DNA from: Geobacter sp. SVR
GTDB taxonomy: Bacteria > Desulfobacterota > Desulfuromonadia > Geobacterales > Pseudopelobacteraceae
Length of the DNA: 64,000 bases
Assembly: GCF_016865365.1 (NCBI RefSeq)
Contig: NZ_AP024469.1
Coordinates: 3,254,501 to 3,318,500 of the forward strand
Reading direction: 5' to 3'
Position 1 is the stretch's first letter. Every line of letters begins with the position of its first letter. Position numbers and translations under genes: made by a program. Below the pieces are notes generated by a model, which saw only the letters and a program-made list of their open reading frames with translations, was not told where the DNA came from and made no database searches. This document shows, in pieces, positions 15,225 through 22,448 of this stretch.

Positions 15225-15722
15225 ATGCGCATCATCTTTTCAATCATCCTGGCGGCCTTTCTGCTGACGGGCTGCGCCTCGGTCATCAGCAACAAGTCTC
15301 AGCGCCTCGTTGACCGAAACATTTCCTTCACCCAGCTGCAGAAGGACCCGGAACGCTATAACGGGCATTTCGTCATGTTCGGCGGAGTCATCGTCTCCCT
15401 GTGGAACAAGAGCAATGGAGCGGACGAACTGGAGATGGTGCAGCTCAAGACAAACGAGCAGGGCGAAATCATCGATACGACCTCATCGGAGGGGCGCTTC
15501 TTCGCCATGAGCCCGACCTTCCTTGACCCGGCCATTTACCAGCCCGGCGTGATGGCGACACTGGTGGGAGAGGTACGGGGCACCAAGACCGTGCCGATCG
15601 GGGAGCGCGAATACATCTATCCGGTACTCCTCATCAAGGAGATCCATCTCTGGAAACCGGATCAGTCGCGCCCTCAGCCAACGTTCCAGTTCGGCGTCGG
15701 GATCGGTACCACCATCCATTGA
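15225..15722 (+). CDS. Slp-family outer-membrane lipoprotein
   Basis: A 165-residue lipoprotein: signal MRIIFSIILAAFLLTG with Cys17 in LLTGC, then the Slp domain with FTQLQKDPERYNGHFVMFGGVI, L-Q-L-K and a YIYPVLLIKEIHLW end. Slp proteins are outer-membrane lipoproteins raised in starvation and stress, without a proven activity. The residues just after Cys17 (ASV) contain no Asp at +2, consistent with sorting to the outer membrane. A TTGACA box lies about 45 bases upstream with a poor -10. It begins the envelope-lipid block. Confidence 0.85.
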   Translation: MRIIFSIILAAFLLTGCASVISNKSQRLVDRNISFTQLQKDPERYNGHFVMFGGVIVSLWNKSNGADELEMVQLKTNEQGEIIDTTSSEGRFFAMSPTFLDPAIYQPGVMATLVGEVRGTKTVPIGEREYIYPVLLIKEIHLWKPDQSRPQPTFQFGVGIGTTIH

Positions 15723-15872: not shown

Positions 15873-17147
15873 ATGAAGTGCCTGATACAGTTGATGATCG
15901 TCTGCCTGATCCTGGTGCCGGCGCTCGCACCGGGGGCGGACGGGCAGTACGGGTACCCGATTCAGGACGCCTATGGGGCAACGATCCTGGGAACCCCGGC
16001 TAAACTCAAACCGGAGCTGCCCAAAAGCGTTCGCACGCGGGAACTGGTGCTGGACGTGGTTCCCGGCCGCCAGCGCCCCCCGATCTTCAATTACAACGAC
16101 GGCCTGCGCTGTACCGTTGCTTATCACAAACGGCGGGCGCCACTGGTGTTCCTGATCGCCGGCACCGGCGCCGGGAATCAGGCCCCCCACCAGGTCACCC
16201 TGATGAAGGCCCTGTACGTGGCCGGCTTTCACGTCATCACCCTCCCCTCCCCCACCACCCCCAACTTTATCATCTCCGCCTCCCGGAGCTGCGTACCGGG
16301 CGTCCCCTTCGATGACGCCGTGGATCTGTACCGGGCCATGGAAACCGCCTGGAACGCCGTTGCAAAGGATGTCGAGGTCTCCGACTTCTACCTTTCCGGC
16401 TACAGCCTGGGCGGCAGCCAAGCCGCCTTTGTGGCCAGGCTGGACGAGGAGCGCAAGGTGTTCAACTTCCGCAAGGTCCTGATGATCAACCCGGTCGTCA
16501 GCACCTACACGGCCGCCCAAAAGATCGAAGAGCTGTTGATGGCGATCCCCGGGGGGCCTTCTAAGGTGGGTTATTTTTTCAACCGGATGCTGGACAAGTT
16601 CAGCGAATACTACATCTACGGCAGCTTTGTCGCCATCAACGACGAATTCATATACGAAGTCTACAAGGAGAAACTGTTCTCCCGGGAAGAGGCCGGAGGA
16701 CTGATCGGCCTCGTCTTTCGGCTCAATTCGGCCGGCATGATCTTCACCTCCGACGTCATGACCAACAGCGGATATGTGGTCCCCAGAAACCGCGTCCTGA
16801 CAACCACCGATTCCCTGTACGACTACTTCCAGGTTTCCACCCATCTCAGCCTTTTCAATTACCTGGACGAACTCCTGTTCCCCTGGGTTCACCAGCAAAA
16901 ACCTGAGATCGGCAGGCAGGCCTTCATCGACTCCCTGAGCCTGAAAAGCATCGGCGACTACCTGAAATCGTCGGCCAAATTCGGTCTGATGACCAATGCC
17001 GACGACTTTTTGCTGACGCCGGACGATCTCGATTTCTTCAAAAGGACATTTTCCGAGCGTGCGACGATCTACCCCCGCGGGGGACATCTCGGCAACATTG
17101 AATACCGGGAGAACGTGGCCCACATGGTGGAGTTCTTCAAACGGTAA
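15873..17147 (+). CDS. Secreted alpha/beta hydrolase next to mlaA
   Basis: A 424-residue protein. I chose the ATG at 15873 because it starts a signal peptide (MKCLIQLMIVCLILVPALA); an earlier in-frame start would bury this. The alpha/beta fold is shown by PLVFLIAGTGAGN (oxyanion region), the nucleophile elbow GYSLGGSQA with Ser in G-x-S-x-G, and a late GGHLGN that can provide His. It lies ten bases upstream of mlaA, pointing to action in the periplasm on lipids or lipid-linked substrates. The substrate (phospholipid or lysophospholipid) is inference from neighbours only. Confidence 0.8.
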   Translation: MKCLIQLMIVCLILVPALAPGADGQYGYPIQDAYGATILGTPAKLKPELPKSVRTRELVLDVVPGRQRPPIFNYNDGLRCTVAYHKRRAPLVFLIAGTGAGNQAPHQVTLMKALYVAGFHVITLPSPTTPNFIISASRSCVPGVPFDDAVDLYRAMETAWNAVAKDVEVSDFYLSGYSLGGSQAAFVARLDEERKVFNFRKVLMINPVVSTYTAAQKIEELLMAIPGGPSKVGYFFNRMLDKFSEYYIYGSFVAINDEFIYEVYKEKLFSREEAGGLIGLVFRLNSAGMIFTSDVMTNSGYVVPRNRVLTTTDSLYDYFQVSTHLSLFNYLDELLFPWVHQQKPEIGRQAFIDSLSLKSIGDYLKSSAKFGLMTNADDFLLTPDDLDFFKRTFSERATIYPRGGHLGNIEYRENVAHMVEFFKR

Positions 17148-17156
17148 GGAGGGGGC

Positions 17157-17993
17157 ATGAAATCGGGGGAACCTTGCAGTCCCGCCCTTCGCGGCCGGTT
17201 GCTGTCCCTGCTGCTCGGGCCGTGCCTGGCAGCGGTGGTGGCCGGATGCGCCACAACCGCGCCCGTTACCGCCGAGGAAAAGCCGATGCACACGGTAAGC
17301 GAGTTCCGGGACCAGCGCTTCGGTTACGTGGACGACCCCTGGGAGTCCTTCAACCGCAGCATGTACAATTTCAACTACTACTTCGACAAATACTTTTTTC
17401 TTCCGGTCATAAGCGGTTACGAATTCATCACCCCCACCATTCTCCAGACCGGTATCTCGAACCTCTTCAGCAACCTGGGAGAGGTCCGCAATTTCACCAA
17501 CAATCTCCTGCAGGGAAAACCGGTAGATTCCCTGGCAACCCTCGGCCGTTTCGTGACCAACAGCACCATCGGGCTCGGAGGTCTGTTCGATCCTGCCACC
17601 CCGCTCGGGCTGGAGCGCCGGTACAATGACTTCGGATTGACCCTGGGCCACTGGGGCGCCGGTTCCGGTCCGTATCTGGTCATGCCGATCCTGGGTCCAT
17701 CCACCCTGCGCGATACCACCGGCTGGGCCGTGGACAGCGGCATGCGTTACGGGATCTACCACGCCATCGATCCCTTTGAAAGCACCAACCACGAGTTCGC
17801 CATCTCAGCCGGCATCGTCCTGCTGGAGGCGGTCGACAAGCGCCATCAGGAAAGCTTCCGCTACTACCAGAGCGACAATCCCTTCGAGTACTACATGGTG
17901 CGCTTCTTTTATCATCAGAAGCGCAATCTCGATGTCCTCAAGGGGCTGAAAAAGCCCGAGGAGGGGGAAGAGGAGAAGCGCGGAGCTGAATGA
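17157..17993 (+). CDS. mlaA: MlaA (VacJ) lipid-asymmetry lipoprotein
   Basis: A 278-residue outer-membrane lipoprotein that removes mislocalised phospholipid from the outer leaflet. A lipobox VVAG-C is at Cys31; then come the family core DPWESFNRSMYNFNYYFDKYFF, the N.F.NLGEVRNFTNN segment, the GRFVTNSTIGLGGLFDPA stretch and YLVMPILGPSTLRD. The acidic C-terminal tail is normal. AAGGAGG precedes the ATG and the secreted hydrolase ends ten bases before it. No mlaBCDEF genes are in the window. Confidence 0.93.
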   Translation: MKSGEPCSPALRGRLLSLLLGPCLAAVVAGCATTAPVTAEEKPMHTVSEFRDQRFGYVDDPWESFNRSMYNFNYYFDKYFFLPVISGYEFITPTILQTGISNLFSNLGEVRNFTNNLLQGKPVDSLATLGRFVTNSTIGLGGLFDPATPLGLERRYNDFGLTLGHWGAGSGPYLVMPILGPSTLRDTTGWAVDSGMRYGIYHAIDPFESTNHEFAISAGIVLLEAVDKRHQESFRYYQSDNPFEYYMVRFFYHQKRNLDVLKGLKKPEEGEEEKRGAE

Positions 17994-18147
17994 CACGGAG
18001 AAACGACAACTCCTTCCCTTCTCCTTTATGCCCTCTGGCCTCTCTTATGCCAAGAAGGGGGCGCACTGCATGGGCTTGTGCAAGAAATTACGACGATAGC
18101 ATTCCCAGCAGCACTCGTGACCGCGGGGATTCGAGAGCGGCTATCCA
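17994..18147 (+). other. Intergenic region after mlaA
   Basis: No gene or clear terminator is visible here. Open frames in this stretch lack ribosome sites and run through the repeat element that follows. Confidence 0.5.
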
Positions 18148-18318
18148 TGAATCCGTGAAGCATGGAAGCCGGAGCGAGCGTCATGCCGGGGCTCCATCGT
18201 CGCCGGCTCCGCTTCATGCCGGCATTGCCGCCCCACCGTCGACGAAATGCTGCCCATACGGAAATGCAAGAGCAGAGGCATGGGTAGCGAGTGCAGGCTG
18301 GAAGGCTTCACGGATTCA
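18148..18318. repeat. Dispersed 171-bp element with 13-bp terminal inverted repeats (copy C)
   Basis: Bounded by TGAATCCGTGAAG and its exact complement CTTCACGGATTCA. The interior contains GCCGGGGCTCCATCGTCGCC and a GACGAAATGCTGCCCATACG-like stretch plus GCAAGAGCAGAGGC, matching in order the interiors of the elements at 28835 and 42086. It has no coding sign and lies in a 490-bp gap. Confidence 0.7.
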
Positions 18319-18340
18319 GCCCCACCGGCAAATCCATCCC

Positions 18341-18388
18341 TGAATCCGTGAGGCATGGGTAGCGAGTGCGAAGGCTTCGCGGATTCAG
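18341..18388. repeat. Short internally deleted derivative of the dispersed element
   Basis: TGAATCCGTGAG and CTTCGCGGATTCA enclose GCATGGGTAGCGAGTGCGAAG, which also occurs near the right end of copy C. The central part of the long element is missing. Confidence 0.55.
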
Positions 18389-18485
18389 CTCATGCCTGCA
18401 CTGAAGGGTTCTGCCCCGACCGCTTTTACCATTGCCGGAGCAACGAAAATCGAGGATAATGCCCCCTCATCGAAGGGGAACTCGC

Positions 18486-20963
18486 ATGCGAACCTTGGTC
18501 GACCTGTTTGAGACATTCGCTTCCCGGGGCGATACAACAGCCTTTGTCAACCGCACCGGTGTGCGCCGCCAGGAGGTGTCCTACCGGCAGTTCAGCGAGC
18601 TGTCGCTGAAAATGGCCCGACTGCTGGCGGACAACGGCGTTCAGCCGGGTGACCGGGTGCTGCTCTGGGGTCCCAACTCATCCTGGTGGGGCATTGCCTA
18701 CTTCGGCATCATCCTGAGCGGAGCGGTCGCCGTTCCGGTGGATTTCATGTCAGGGCCGGAACGGGCGGATACCATCCGCACCCTCACCGAGGCACGCCTC
18801 GTCGTCCAGAGCAGATTCAAGGCCGAACGGCTCTCCTTTTCCCCCTCGCTGCTGCTGGAAGACCTGCACTTCCTGCTGGAGAACGTCGTCCCCCTCTCCA
18901 GCCCCCATCATCCGGCGCCCGGCGATATGGCCCAGCTGATCTACACCTCCGGCACCACCGGTAATCCCAAGGGGGTCATACTGACCCACGCCAACCTGAC
19001 CGCCAACATGATCCAGATCAACCAGGCGGTGCCGATCATCACCCCCTCCTTCACCTTTCTGTCGCTCCTGCCGCTCTCACACATGTTCGAGCAGATGGGG
19101 GGCTTTTTCACCCCGCTCTACCGCGGGGCAGGCATCGTCTATCTGCGCACCCTCAAGCCATCGGCCATCATGGAGGCGCTGGCCGAGGAAGACATCTACG
19201 TCATTATGTCGGTCCCCCGGCTGATGCAGCTTCTCAGAACCTCGATCGAGCAGGGGCTGGCCGAAAAGCATCTGGACGGAGCGGCACGCAGGCTCTTGCA
19301 ACTGGCCCCGCACCTGCCCCCTGCCCTGCGCCGGCTGCTCTTCTTTCCGGTCCACAAGGCCTTTGGCCGTCATTTCAGGCTCTTCGTCTCCGGCGGTGCG
19401 CCGCTCGACCCGGAGCTGCACTCCTTCTGGGACCGGCTCGGATTCACCCTGCTGGAGGGCTATGGACTGACCGAATGCTCGCCGGTCCTGACCGTCAACC
19501 GGATGGAGCGCCAGGTGCCCGGCTCGGTCGGCCCGGCCCTGCCGGGGGTTGAGCTGAAAATGGAACACCAGGAGGTCGTGGCCCGGGGAGACAATGTCTT
19601 TCCCGGTTATTACCGGAACGAGCAGGCCACCAGGGCCGCCTTCACCGCCGAGGGCTGGTTCAGGACCGGCGATCTGGGGGAGCTTGCCCCGGACGGCTGG
19701 CTGACCATCAAGGGACGTGAAAAGGAGCTGATCGTCACCGGCGCCGGGGTCAACGTCTATCCCGACGAGATCGAGGCCATCCTCAACAGGGTCGCCGGTG
19801 TCAGGGAATCATGCGTGATCGGCATGGACCGCGGCGGAGGGGAAGAGGTGCACGCGGTCCTGCTGCTGGATGGCGCCGGACAGTCCCCGGATGAGATCGT
19901 GCGCCAGGCCAACCTGCAGCTCGATACGCTGCACCAGATCAGCGGCGCCACGGTCTGGGACGAGGCGGAGTTTCCCAAGACCACCACCCTCAAGATCCAG
20001 AAGTTCCTGGTAAAGGAGCGGATCAGCAAAGGGCGGGAGCTGGGAGGAGGGACTGTTTCCGGTGACCGGCTGCTGGCCCTGCTGGCACGGATCACCGGCA
20101 CTCCGGCCGCAGAGATCGGGGAGGATGCGCTGCTGGTGGCGGACCTGGGGCTGACCTCCATCGGCCGGGTGGAACTGGTCAATTACCTGGAACAGGACTA
20201 CCGCCTCGACATCGAGGACTCCCGCATCGGGCCGCAGACGCGAGTCCGGGACCTGCGCCAGATCATTTCCAAACGCGAACGGGTGCAGAGCCGCGACCGT
20301 TTCAGGTTCTGGACCAACAGCACCCCGGTCAGGGGGCTCAGGATGCTGTGGGACGCCATCGTCCACTACCCGCTCTTCCGCAGCTTCGTCACCCTGGAGA
20401 CGCGCGGTGCGGAGCTGCTCGAAAACCTGGAAGGGCCGGTCTTCTTCGTATCCAACCACCTGAGTTACTTTGACCAGCCCTCCATCATGTTCTCCCTGCC
20501 GCGTCGGCTGCGGTACCGCACCGCCAGCGCCGCCTACGAGGAATTCTTTTCCAGCCCCTCCGCAGGTCCCCTGATGAGGATCTGGAAACGATTCACTTAC
20601 GAATACGGCACCTGGCTGCTCAATCTCTTTCCCCTGCCCCAGACGCGCGGATTCGGCGGCTCGATGCGCTTCATGGGTAGACTGGTCGATCACGGCGTCA
20701 ACATCCTGATCTTCCCGGAAGGGCAGCACTCCCGCGACGGCATGATGCTGCCCTTCAAGCCGGGGCTGGGGATCATGGTGAAGGAGCTGGGCATCCCGGT
20801 GGTGCCGGTCAAGATCAGCGGCACCTATCAGATCCTGCCGCACCACGCCAGCCGGCCGAAGCGGGGCACCGTGACCGTGACCTTCGGCGCGCCGCTGCGC
20901 TTCCGCTTCGAGGAACCGGCCGAGATCGTCAAAACGGCGCAAGCCGCAGTGGAGCGGCTGTAG
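18486..20963 (+). CDS. Aas-like fusion: acyl-AMP ligase, ACP domain and PlsC acyltransferase
   Basis: An 825-residue three-domain protein. Residues 1-505 are an AMP-forming acyl ligase: TSGTTGNPKG at 154-163, GYGLTECSP at about 325, TGDLG near 395 and a TTTLKIQK end with the catalytic Lys near 500. Residues about 520-590 form a carrier domain with DLGLTSIGR, Ser558 being the likely phosphopantetheine site. Residues 630-825 are a PlsC-type acyltransferase with NH658LSYFD663 and FPEG at 743-746. The protein can thus activate a fatty acid, hold it and transfer it, probably to a lysophospholipid at the inner membrane. E. coli Aas has the acyltransferase first and no ACP. The ATG at 18486 has AGGGGA upstream. 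Confidence 0.88.
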   Translation: MRTLVDLFETFASRGDTTAFVNRTGVRRQEVSYRQFSELSLKMARLLADNGVQPGDRVLLWGPNSSWWGIAYFGIILSGAVAVPVDFMSGPERADTIRTLTEARLVVQSRFKAERLSFSPSLLLEDLHFLLENVVPLSSPHHPAPGDMAQLIYTSGTTGNPKGVILTHANLTANMIQINQAVPIITPSFTFLSLLPLSHMFEQMGGFFTPLYRGAGIVYLRTLKPSAIMEALAEEDIYVIMSVPRLMQLLRTSIEQGLAEKHLDGAARRLLQLAPHLPPALRRLLFFPVHKAFGRHFRLFVSGGAPLDPELHSFWDRLGFTLLEGYGLTECSPVLTVNRMERQVPGSVGPALPGVELKMEHQEVVARGDNVFPGYYRNEQATRAAFTAEGWFRTGDLGELAPDGWLTIKGREKELIVTGAGVNVYPDEIEAILNRVAGVRESCVIGMDRGGGEEVHAVLLLDGAGQSPDEIVRQANLQLDTLHQISGATVWDEAEFPKTTTLKIQKFLVKERISKGRELGGGTVSGDRLLALLARITGTPAAEIGEDALLVADLGLTSIGRVELVNYLEQDYRLDIEDSRIGPQTRVRDLRQIISKRERVQSRDRFRFWTNSTPVRGLRMLWDAIVHYPLFRSFVTLETRGAELLENLEGPVFFVSNHLSYFDQPSIMFSLPRRLRYRTASAAYEEFFSSPSAGPLMRIWKRFTYEYGTWLLNLFPLPQTRGFGGSMRFMGRLVDHGVNILIFPEGQHSRDGMMLPFKPGLGIMVKELGIPVVPVKISGTYQILPHHASRPKRGTVTVTFGAPLRFRFEEPAEIVKTAQAAVERL

Positions 20964-20983
20964 AAGACGCCATGATAATAGAA

Positions 20984-21138
20984 CGCGGATGACGCGGACC
21001 GAGCGGATAACGCGGGTAAAAAACCGATCAGAACACGAATCCCGGCCGGCCCCATAGGCGCGGAGATAAGCACAAACTTTTATGGATAACTTCTTTCAAA
21101 CCACTCCGCGAAAATCCCGCCCAATCGCGTCATCCGCG
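20984..21138. repeat. Intergenic element with 13-bp perfect inverted ends
   Basis: CGCGGATGACGCG at 20984-20996 is repeated in inverse at 21126-21138, and a related GCGGATAACGCGGG lies just inside the left end. It fills the gap between the ligase fusion and the transporter gene and could form a long hairpin in the mRNA or be a mobile repeat. Confidence 0.6.
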
Positions 21139-21182
21139 GCCCATTGCCTTTTGATTTTTGATTTGAAGTTTCAGGGATATTC

Positions 21183-22448
21183 ATGACTACCGACACAACT
21201 TCACCTAACTATCGCCGCTACGCCCTGTCCATGCTGCTGGCGGTCAATCTGCTGAACTACATCGACCGCCAGGTGCTGTTCGCCGTGTTCCCGCTGCTCA
21301 AATCGGACCTGCAGTTGTCGGACACGGCCCTGGGTTTTCTGGGGAGCGTCTTCATGCTCAGCTACCTGATGACCGCCCCGCTGTTCGGCTGGCTGGGGGA
21401 CCACTGGAGCCGGCTGCGGCTGGCGGCCGGCGGCCTGGTGGTCTGGAGCCTGGCAACGGCCCTGGCCGGATTCGCCCCCGGCTACCGGACCCTGCTGGCG
21501 GCCCGGGCCGTGGTGGGGGTCGGCGAAGCCAGCTTCGGCACGGTCTCCCCCGGCCTGATCTCCGACTTTTTTCCGCGCGAACGGCGGGGGCGGGTGCTCT
21601 CCTGGTTCTACGTGGCCATCCCGGTCGGAAGCGCCCTGGGCTACCTGCTGGGGGGGATGCTGGGACACCGCTTCGGCTGGCACGCAGCCTTTCTGGTGGT
21701 CGGCGTGCCGGGACTGCTGCTGGCGCTGCCGATCGCGCTCATGAGGGAACCGCCCCGCGGGGGCCAGGATGCTGCACCGGACGATGAGCAGGAGGTGAAG
21801 ACCGGCGGGTATGCGGCCCTGTTCAGAAACCGCTCCTTCGTGCTCAACACCCTGGCCATGGCAGCCATGACCTTCGCCATCGGAGGGCTGGCCCAGTGGA
21901 TACCCTCCTTCCTCTACCGCACCCACGCCCTGGATGTGGAAAAGGCCAATACCCTCTTCGGCGCCGTAACCGTGCTGGCCGGCATTGCCGGGACCCTGAC
22001 CGGCGGCTGGCTCGGCGACCGCTGGCAGAAGCGCACCCCCCGGGGCTACCTGCTGGTATCGGGATGGGGATTCGTGATCGGCGCACCGCTGGCAGCCGCC
22101 GCCTTTCTCTCCACCAGCCTGCCCGGCTGCATGACCGCCATTTTTCTGGCCGAATTCTTCCTGTTTCTCAACACCGGCCCCCTCAACACCGTCATCGTCA
22201 ACGTCACCAACCCCGGCGTGCGTGCCATGGCCTTTGCGGTCAACATCTTCTTCATCCACGCCCTGGGGGATGCCATTTCCCCCTCGATTCTCGGTTGGCT
22301 CTCGGACCAATGGGGGCTGCGCCAGGCGCTTCTGGTCACTCCACTGGCAATGGGGCTGGCAGCCCTGTTCTGCTTCGCGTGCGGCAGACAGGTTGCGGCA
22401 GACATGTCCGTATCCAGTGATCGGGGACCAGGAACCGGTGATCAGTAA
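21183..22448 (+). CDS. Spinster-like MFS transporter
   Basis: A 421-residue, twelve-helix major-facilitator protein. The first helix carries NYIDRQ with D28-R29, a Spinster-family signature, followed by GFLGSVFMLSYL, GWLGDHWSRLRL (motif A), and GVGEASFGTVSPGLISDFFPRERRGR in helices 4-5. The final 15 residues are hydrophilic. Spinster proteins export lysophospholipids or sphingosine phosphate in animals, and bacterial homologues exist. Lying just downstream of an acyl-ligase/PlsC fusion, lysophospholipid transport is an attractive inference, in parallel with E. coli LplT-Aas. Drug or aromatic-acid transport cannot be excluded. Confidence 0.82.
   Translation: MTTDTTSPNYRRYALSMLLAVNLLNYIDRQVLFAVFPLLKSDLQLSDTALGFLGSVFMLSYLMTAPLFGWLGDHWSRLRLAAGGLVVWSLATALAGFAPGYRTLLAARAVVGVGEASFGTVSPGLISDFFPRERRGRVLSWFYVAIPVGSALGYLLGGMLGHRFGWHAAFLVVGVPGLLLALPIALMREPPRGGQDAAPDDEQEVKTGGYAALFRNRSFVLNTLAMAAMTFAIGGLAQWIPSFLYRTHALDVEKANTLFGAVTVLAGIAGTLTGGWLGDRWQKRTPRGYLLVSGWGFVIGAPLAAAAFLSTSLPGCMTAIFLAEFFLFLNTGPLNTVIVNVTNPGVRAMAFAVNIFFIHALGDAISPSILGWLSDQWGLRQALLVTPLAMGLAALFCFACGRQVAADMSVSSDRGPGTGDQ

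Follow-up and report, generated by a model that had tools for sequence, protein, structure and literature searches.

The periplasmic phospholipase system MlaYZ of Pseudomonas aeruginosa is reported to extract and cut outer-leaflet phospholipid (Guest et al. 2023, cited in PMC11977310 and PMC11131202). Three papers describe MlaY (PA3238) as a lipase with the triad Ser187/Asp388/His415 and MlaZ (PA3239) as an MlaA homologue that passes outer-leaflet phospholipid to MlaY (PMC11131202, PMC11977310, PMC12569750). No enzyme or transporter dedicated to return of the products is named in the MlaYZ papers that we consulted. In Escherichia coli, lysophospholipid that LplT has flipped inward is re-acylated by Aas (PMC11416262). 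In animals, SPNS1 exports lysophospholipids from lysosomes together with protons, and they are then re-esterified (PMC10115416). Here we describe a block of four genes in Geobacter sp. SVR that encodes an MlaY-type hydrolase, an MlaZ-type lipoprotein, a fusion of acyl ligase, acyl carrier protein (ACP) and PlsC acyltransferase, and a Spinster (Spns) transporter of the major facilitator superfamily (MFS). The block lies in a 64-kb window (the whole stretch of DNA that was analysed; G000:C1:3254501-3318500) of a 4.72-Mb genome in a single contig. With a probability of about 0.68, we read it as a putative outer-membrane phospholipid salvage line whose two halves would act in series. Open reading frames (ORFs) and Pfam confirmed the four genes in the place and order given by an earlier prediction made from this DNA (the original prediction):

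15873..17147, + strand: mlaY-type gene for a predicted periplasmic phospholipase (alpha/beta hydrolase), assigned by homology, the aligned triad and an AlphaFold model
17157..17993, + strand: mlaZ-type gene for an MlaA-family outer-membrane lipoprotein (PF04333, E = 3.8e-67; MlaZ clade)
18486..20963, + strand (ORF from TTG 18432): acyl ligase-ACP-PlsC fusion, assigned by Pfam and homologue starts
18510..19613, + strand: AMP-binding (acyl ligase) domain of the fusion (PF00501, residues 27-394)
20064..20228, + strand: ACP domain of the fusion with the phosphopantetheine Ser, LGLTSI (PF00550, residues 545-599)
20406..20819, + strand: PlsC acyltransferase domain of the fusion with NHxxYxD and FPEG motifs (PF01553, residues 659-796)
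21183..22448, + strand: Spns MFS transporter, assigned by PDB relatives, tree and Asp28/Arg29/Arg108/Glu115

The first two genes had been described as a secreted hydrolase and MlaA. Both genes stand, and their identity is refined here to MlaY and MlaZ, the MlaA protein being of the type reported to hand lipid to a phospholipase. Pfam and PDB sequence searches left the hydrolase unclassified, with weak alpha/beta-hydrolase matches alone (sub-threshold in Pfam); its MlaY identity was first suggested by the literature and afterwards tested by sequence. Our P. aeruginosa references were an alpha/beta hydrolase and VacJ lipoprotein pair from a stretch on two P. aeruginosa plasmids, the hydrolase of which (L221) has Ser, Asp and His exactly at the published positions 187, 388 and 415. 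Across 404 residues the window hydrolase shares 40% identity with this MlaY, and its predicted triad, Ser178-Asp378-His405, aligns with that of the reference and is invariant among 41 homologues. An AlphaFold model (pLDDT 91.9) has a signal-like N-terminal helix, and Foldseek matched it to alpha/beta hydrolases in the PDB, including esterases and lipases; these matches fix the fold and not the substrate.

A whole-genome search for the MlaA family returned the protein of the block as its single match, and this protein is 49% identical to P. aeruginosa MlaZ. In a tree of 44 MlaA-family sequences (32 hydrolase-paired and 12 solo), all 32 paired proteins, including those of the window and of P. 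aeruginosa, form one clade with support of 100/99, and the 12 solo proteins, E. coli MlaA among them, lie on the opposite side of that branch. Within 117 genomes of the host's order, mlaY adjoins mlaZ at 84 of 84 places. In named genomes, which span Desulfuromonadales, Syntrophales, Methylomirabilota, Nitrosomonas and Gammaproteobacteria, the two are likewise adjacent at 79 of the 80 loci, and the eightieth is truncated by a contig end. They overlap by 4 bp in L068 and are naturally fused in three genomes as one ORF of 701-764 residues (L042:1317-3611, L043:2799-5060, L044:3201-5306). By sequence, the hydrolase and MlaA protein are an MlaY-MlaZ pair with predicted periplasmic phospholipase activity, resembling the P. 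aeruginosa system in the two proteins, their order, the triad and the MlaZ clade. The known range of MlaYZ extends well past Pseudomonas, with a single MlaZ clade over several phyla. The genome gave no match to PldA, the only other outer-membrane phospholipase searched for, so MlaY may be its main enzyme of this kind. Two variants of the pair were also seen: in the natural fusions MlaZ forms the C-terminal half, so that a lipid anchor at an N terminus of its own is impossible, and at L077:2575-4505 two tandem MlaA-family genes follow mlaY, the first alone belonging to the MlaZ clade.

In the third protein, Pfam recognized AMP-binding (8.3e-72), PP-binding (3.5e-7) and Acyltransferase (5.6e-17) domains. 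The in-frame ATG at 18486 suits the homologues better than the TTG at 18432, most matches beginning at query residues 8-19. The label of an Aas-like fusion held for the parts and failed for the plan. E. coli Aas aligns as two blocks in reversed order, with the ligase N-terminal (27%, E = 6e-32) and PlsC C-terminal (26%, E = 3e-9) in the fusion, and the ACP domain that sits between them is absent from Aas. Among 22 fusion orthologues the ligase motif YTSGTTGNPKG is largely invariant, and the ACP phosphopantetheine Ser, the His and Asp of HX4D, and FPEG are invariant throughout. A match to the fusion is present in 86 of the 117 genomes; among 297 genomes sampled across the phylum, just two that lie outside the order match it at 1e-110 (36-37% identity). 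To judge from its sequence, the protein is Aas-like in its components with a domain plan of its own. In the salvage reading, lysophospholipid would be the acceptor of its PlsC domain.

The assignment of the fourth protein as a Spinster-type MFS member was borne out, and Pfam likewise places it in the MFS. A phmmer search of PDB sequences returned SPNS1 as best match (2e-58), then SPNS2 and entry 6e8j, which we take to be Hyphomonas Spns, and next DgoT at 3e-13. In a 50-row tree, whose long branches leave the deeper order unsure, the transporter and its orthologues group with the lysolipid carriers human SPNS1 and SPNS2 (support 99/97), and eight E. coli MFS proteins (LplT, DgoT, GlpT, UhpT, NanT, MhpT, GalP and EmrD) lie outside. 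A grouping with non-lipid MFS families, which would have refuted the original prediction, was not seen. The proton network described for HnSpns comprises an Asp-Arg pair in transmembrane helix 1 and Arg and Glu in transmembrane helix 4 (PMC13192786). Its equivalents Asp28, Arg29, Arg108 and Glu115 are invariant in 28 Spns orthologues, and human SPNS1/2 have identical residues there. E. coli LplT is without three of the four; E. coli DgoT shares all four, and the feature alone is not Spns-specific. On this sequence evidence the transporter is a true Spinster protein and not a member of the LplT family. Where an Spns orthologue lies away from the fusion, it adjoins a stand-alone PlsC-like gene at 11 loci, many of the pairs overlapping or abutting, and Pfam confirmed 8 of these 11 neighbours as PF01553. 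The stand-alone genes provide a second, independent link of Spns to acyltransfer. A recurrent Spns neighbour in another clade (c34), nitrite/sulfite-reductase-like as judged by eye, looks unrelated.

Conservation of the neighbourhood was assessed by joining, by script, the coordinates of the four genes in the 117 genomes, with close Spns and close MlaY proteins defined as at least 72% and at least 57% identical to the respective window protein. Fusion and close Spns are both present in 53 genomes and proved to be neighbours in most, as the original prediction expected: they lie within 12 kb on one strand in 45 of the 53 and within 1 kb in 35. Because of this frequent pairing, and because no opposite-strand close pair among the four genes was found in the 117 genomes, the arrangement exceeds chance. 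All four genes are clustered on one strand in 24 of the 117 genomes, or 24 of the 37 that hold fusion, close Spns and close MlaY; these clusters are spread over nine genera and three families, related genomes that are not independent samples. The gene order is fusion-Spns-MlaY-MlaZ in 17 clusters and MlaY-MlaZ-fusion-Spns, the order of the window, in 7. The occurrence of two orders, together with the PlsC link, is the best guard against plain inheritance as an explanation of the clustering. Near the fusion, only the Spns and MlaY clades nearest the window proteins occur. In L063 the fusion and Spns genes have a 4-bp overlap, and in a same-genus relative (G001:C17) the genes for hydrolase, MlaA and fusion follow the window's order.

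The sequence thus gives four protein identities, intact catalytic motifs and a conserved neighbourhood, and one protein is available in the block for each step of a serial salvage line, which makes such a line the simplest reading. MlaZ would take stray phospholipid from the outer leaflet and hand it to MlaY, which would cut it in the periplasm to lysophospholipid and free fatty acid. Proton-driven Spns would flip the lysophospholipid inward over the inner membrane. In the cytoplasm, the ligase domain would activate the free fatty acid with ATP and load it on the ACP to which it is fused, and PlsC would return the fatty acid to the lysophospholipid. The predicted MlaYZ activity, lysolipid transport as by SPNS1 and the LplT-Aas principle are carried over from homologues described in the literature. 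We infer the inward direction of Spns, the acceptor of PlsC and the serial work of the two halves; a lysolipid substrate for the transporter is suggested by its gene neighbours. A lipid-repair cycle had already been suggested for this locus; the idea gains from the finding that the first two genes are MlaY and MlaZ, a known phospholipase system, although its details differ, and the support is genomic. We consider it slightly better than an even bet that the cycle is self-contained, with the ligase-ACP-PlsC protein rejoining both MlaYZ products and Spns replacing LplT as importer, as a bacterial counterpart of lysosomal SPNS1 salvage.

Each of the described systems differs from this locus in an informative way. 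The P. aeruginosa pair is without an Spns or ligase-ACP-PlsC gene alongside, whereas the window has a putative recycling arm. Like LplT-Aas, the block sets an MFS protein, here a predicted flippase, next to an enzyme that unites acyl activation and PlsC-type acyltransfer in one chain; unlike it, the transporter falls in the Spns clade, the order is ligase-ACP-PlsC instead of PlsC-ligase, and the block is linked to MlaYZ. With SPNS1 salvage it would share breakdown outside the cytosol, proton-driven lysolipid transport by an Spns protein and cytosolic re-esterification, but in a bacterial envelope and with a dedicated ligase-ACP-PlsC enzyme. The kinds of component are already known, and what appears to be new is that MlaYZ is joined with a recycling arm and that a Spinster protein takes LplT's place. 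In our searches, which covered subscription journals thinly, we found no literature tying MlaYZ or Aas-like enzymes to bacterial Spns. The locus offers a testable route for the fate of MlaYZ products. If the reading is true, a bacterial Spns member gains a substrate and a physiological task, LplT has a non-orthologous replacement, and Aas has a reversed, ACP-containing version.

Several observations weigh against a salvage line. Geomonas-like genomes hold the fusion-Spns pair and MlaYZ at separate sites, far apart, and MlaYZ occurs without fusion or Spns alongside in Nitrosomonas (N. mobilis), Methylophagaceae and P. aeruginosa, so the two halves need not be coupled. Other families of the phylum have distant homologues of Spns and of the fusion, and the neighbours of these are mixed. 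Lysophosphatidic acid, too, can serve PlsC domains as substrate. The separation in Geomonas-like genomes would suit two modules that are mere neighbours, MlaYZ degrading phospholipid and fusion-Spns doing another lipid job, such as uptake or remodelling of environmental lysolipid or fatty acid, within a common envelope-stress neighbourhood. So would the genes found between the modules in several relatives, namely an OmpA/DUF4398 lipoprotein, a BrkB family member and, as judged by eye, genes for a mechanosensitive channel and for MacAB-TolC. We nevertheless regard this explanation as unlikely, given the close clustering in nine genera, in two gene orders and always on the same strand, the restriction of the fusion's companions to the window-nearest Spns and MlaY clades, and a chemistry that suits serial action.

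It is also conceivable that Spns is an exporter or a drug or metabolite carrier, with the fusion making an acylated product for export and MlaYZ acting as unrelated quality control. Human SPNS2 exports sphingosine-1-phosphate, and a mycobacterial Spns member is reported to move drugs and to respond to lipids in both directions (PMC13192786), so family membership fixes neither substrate nor direction. The genomic context argues for another role, since phospholipid genes (the fusion, MlaYZ or a stand-alone PlsC) are frequent beside Spns in different genomes and no other biosynthetic gene is recurrent there in clustered loci, which makes export improbable in our view. A further alternative, that the MlaA-family protein is an ordinary MlaA for the MlaFEDC route and the hydrolase a bystander, draws on the other mla genes of the genome. 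At G000:C1:4121500-4132500 (L241:1196-5686), mlaE, an mlaF-like ATPase gene, mlaD, a PF02321 TolC-type efflux gene and mlaC stand in a row that contains no MlaA-family gene. With no second MlaA-family protein in the genome, the window MlaZ may also have to serve MlaC. The invariable hydrolase pairing, the natural fusions and the MlaZ clade render a bystander hydrolase highly improbable. To our knowledge, a TolC-type protein within an mla row is unusual.

Spacing within the window bears on expression of the block and likewise counsels caution. The gaps are 9 bp between mlaY and mlaZ, 438 bp between mlaZ and the fusion (492 bp from 18486) and 219 bp between fusion and Spns, and they are far shorter in several relatives. 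With gaps of 438 and 219 bp, co-transcription in the window is no more than a possibility, and the spacing does not show a tight four-gene operon here. Scanned for promoters and terminators, the window gave no more signal than shuffled sequence. An ORF at 17990-18343, in the mlaZ-fusion interval, was rejected as a gene, as it is without a Pfam match and the interval can be as short as 18-153 bp in relatives.

Other genes accompany the block in relatives. A small lipoprotein (~90 residues, without a Pfam match) is encoded between Spns and mlaY in ~20 genomes (L034:4849-5118, L053:3423-3740, L057:10285-10611, L064:4346-4621 and others); it is not in the window and is a candidate component. In seven genomes (L043:5068-6693, L044:5303-6937, L033:7311-8921, L057:7446-9050, L058:5946-7592, L059:4745-6364, L185:8336-9862) a DUF748 gene adjoins one or another of the four, and a TamB-domain gene follows mlaYZ on a Skermanella rosea plasmid (L223:6538-10215). 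We take DUF748 to be AsmA-like; AsmA-like and TamB proteins have been connected with the supply of phospholipid to the outer membrane, and a DUF748/TamB protein may be a further partner of the block, with no such gene near the four genes of the window. Two relatives have, close to the block, a gene that by eye resembles one for an oleate hydratase (L054:9421-10992, L035:1-684). In the window itself, a gene for an Slp-family outer-membrane lipoprotein (15225-15722; PF03843, 3.1e-36) directly precedes mlaY and shares its strand.

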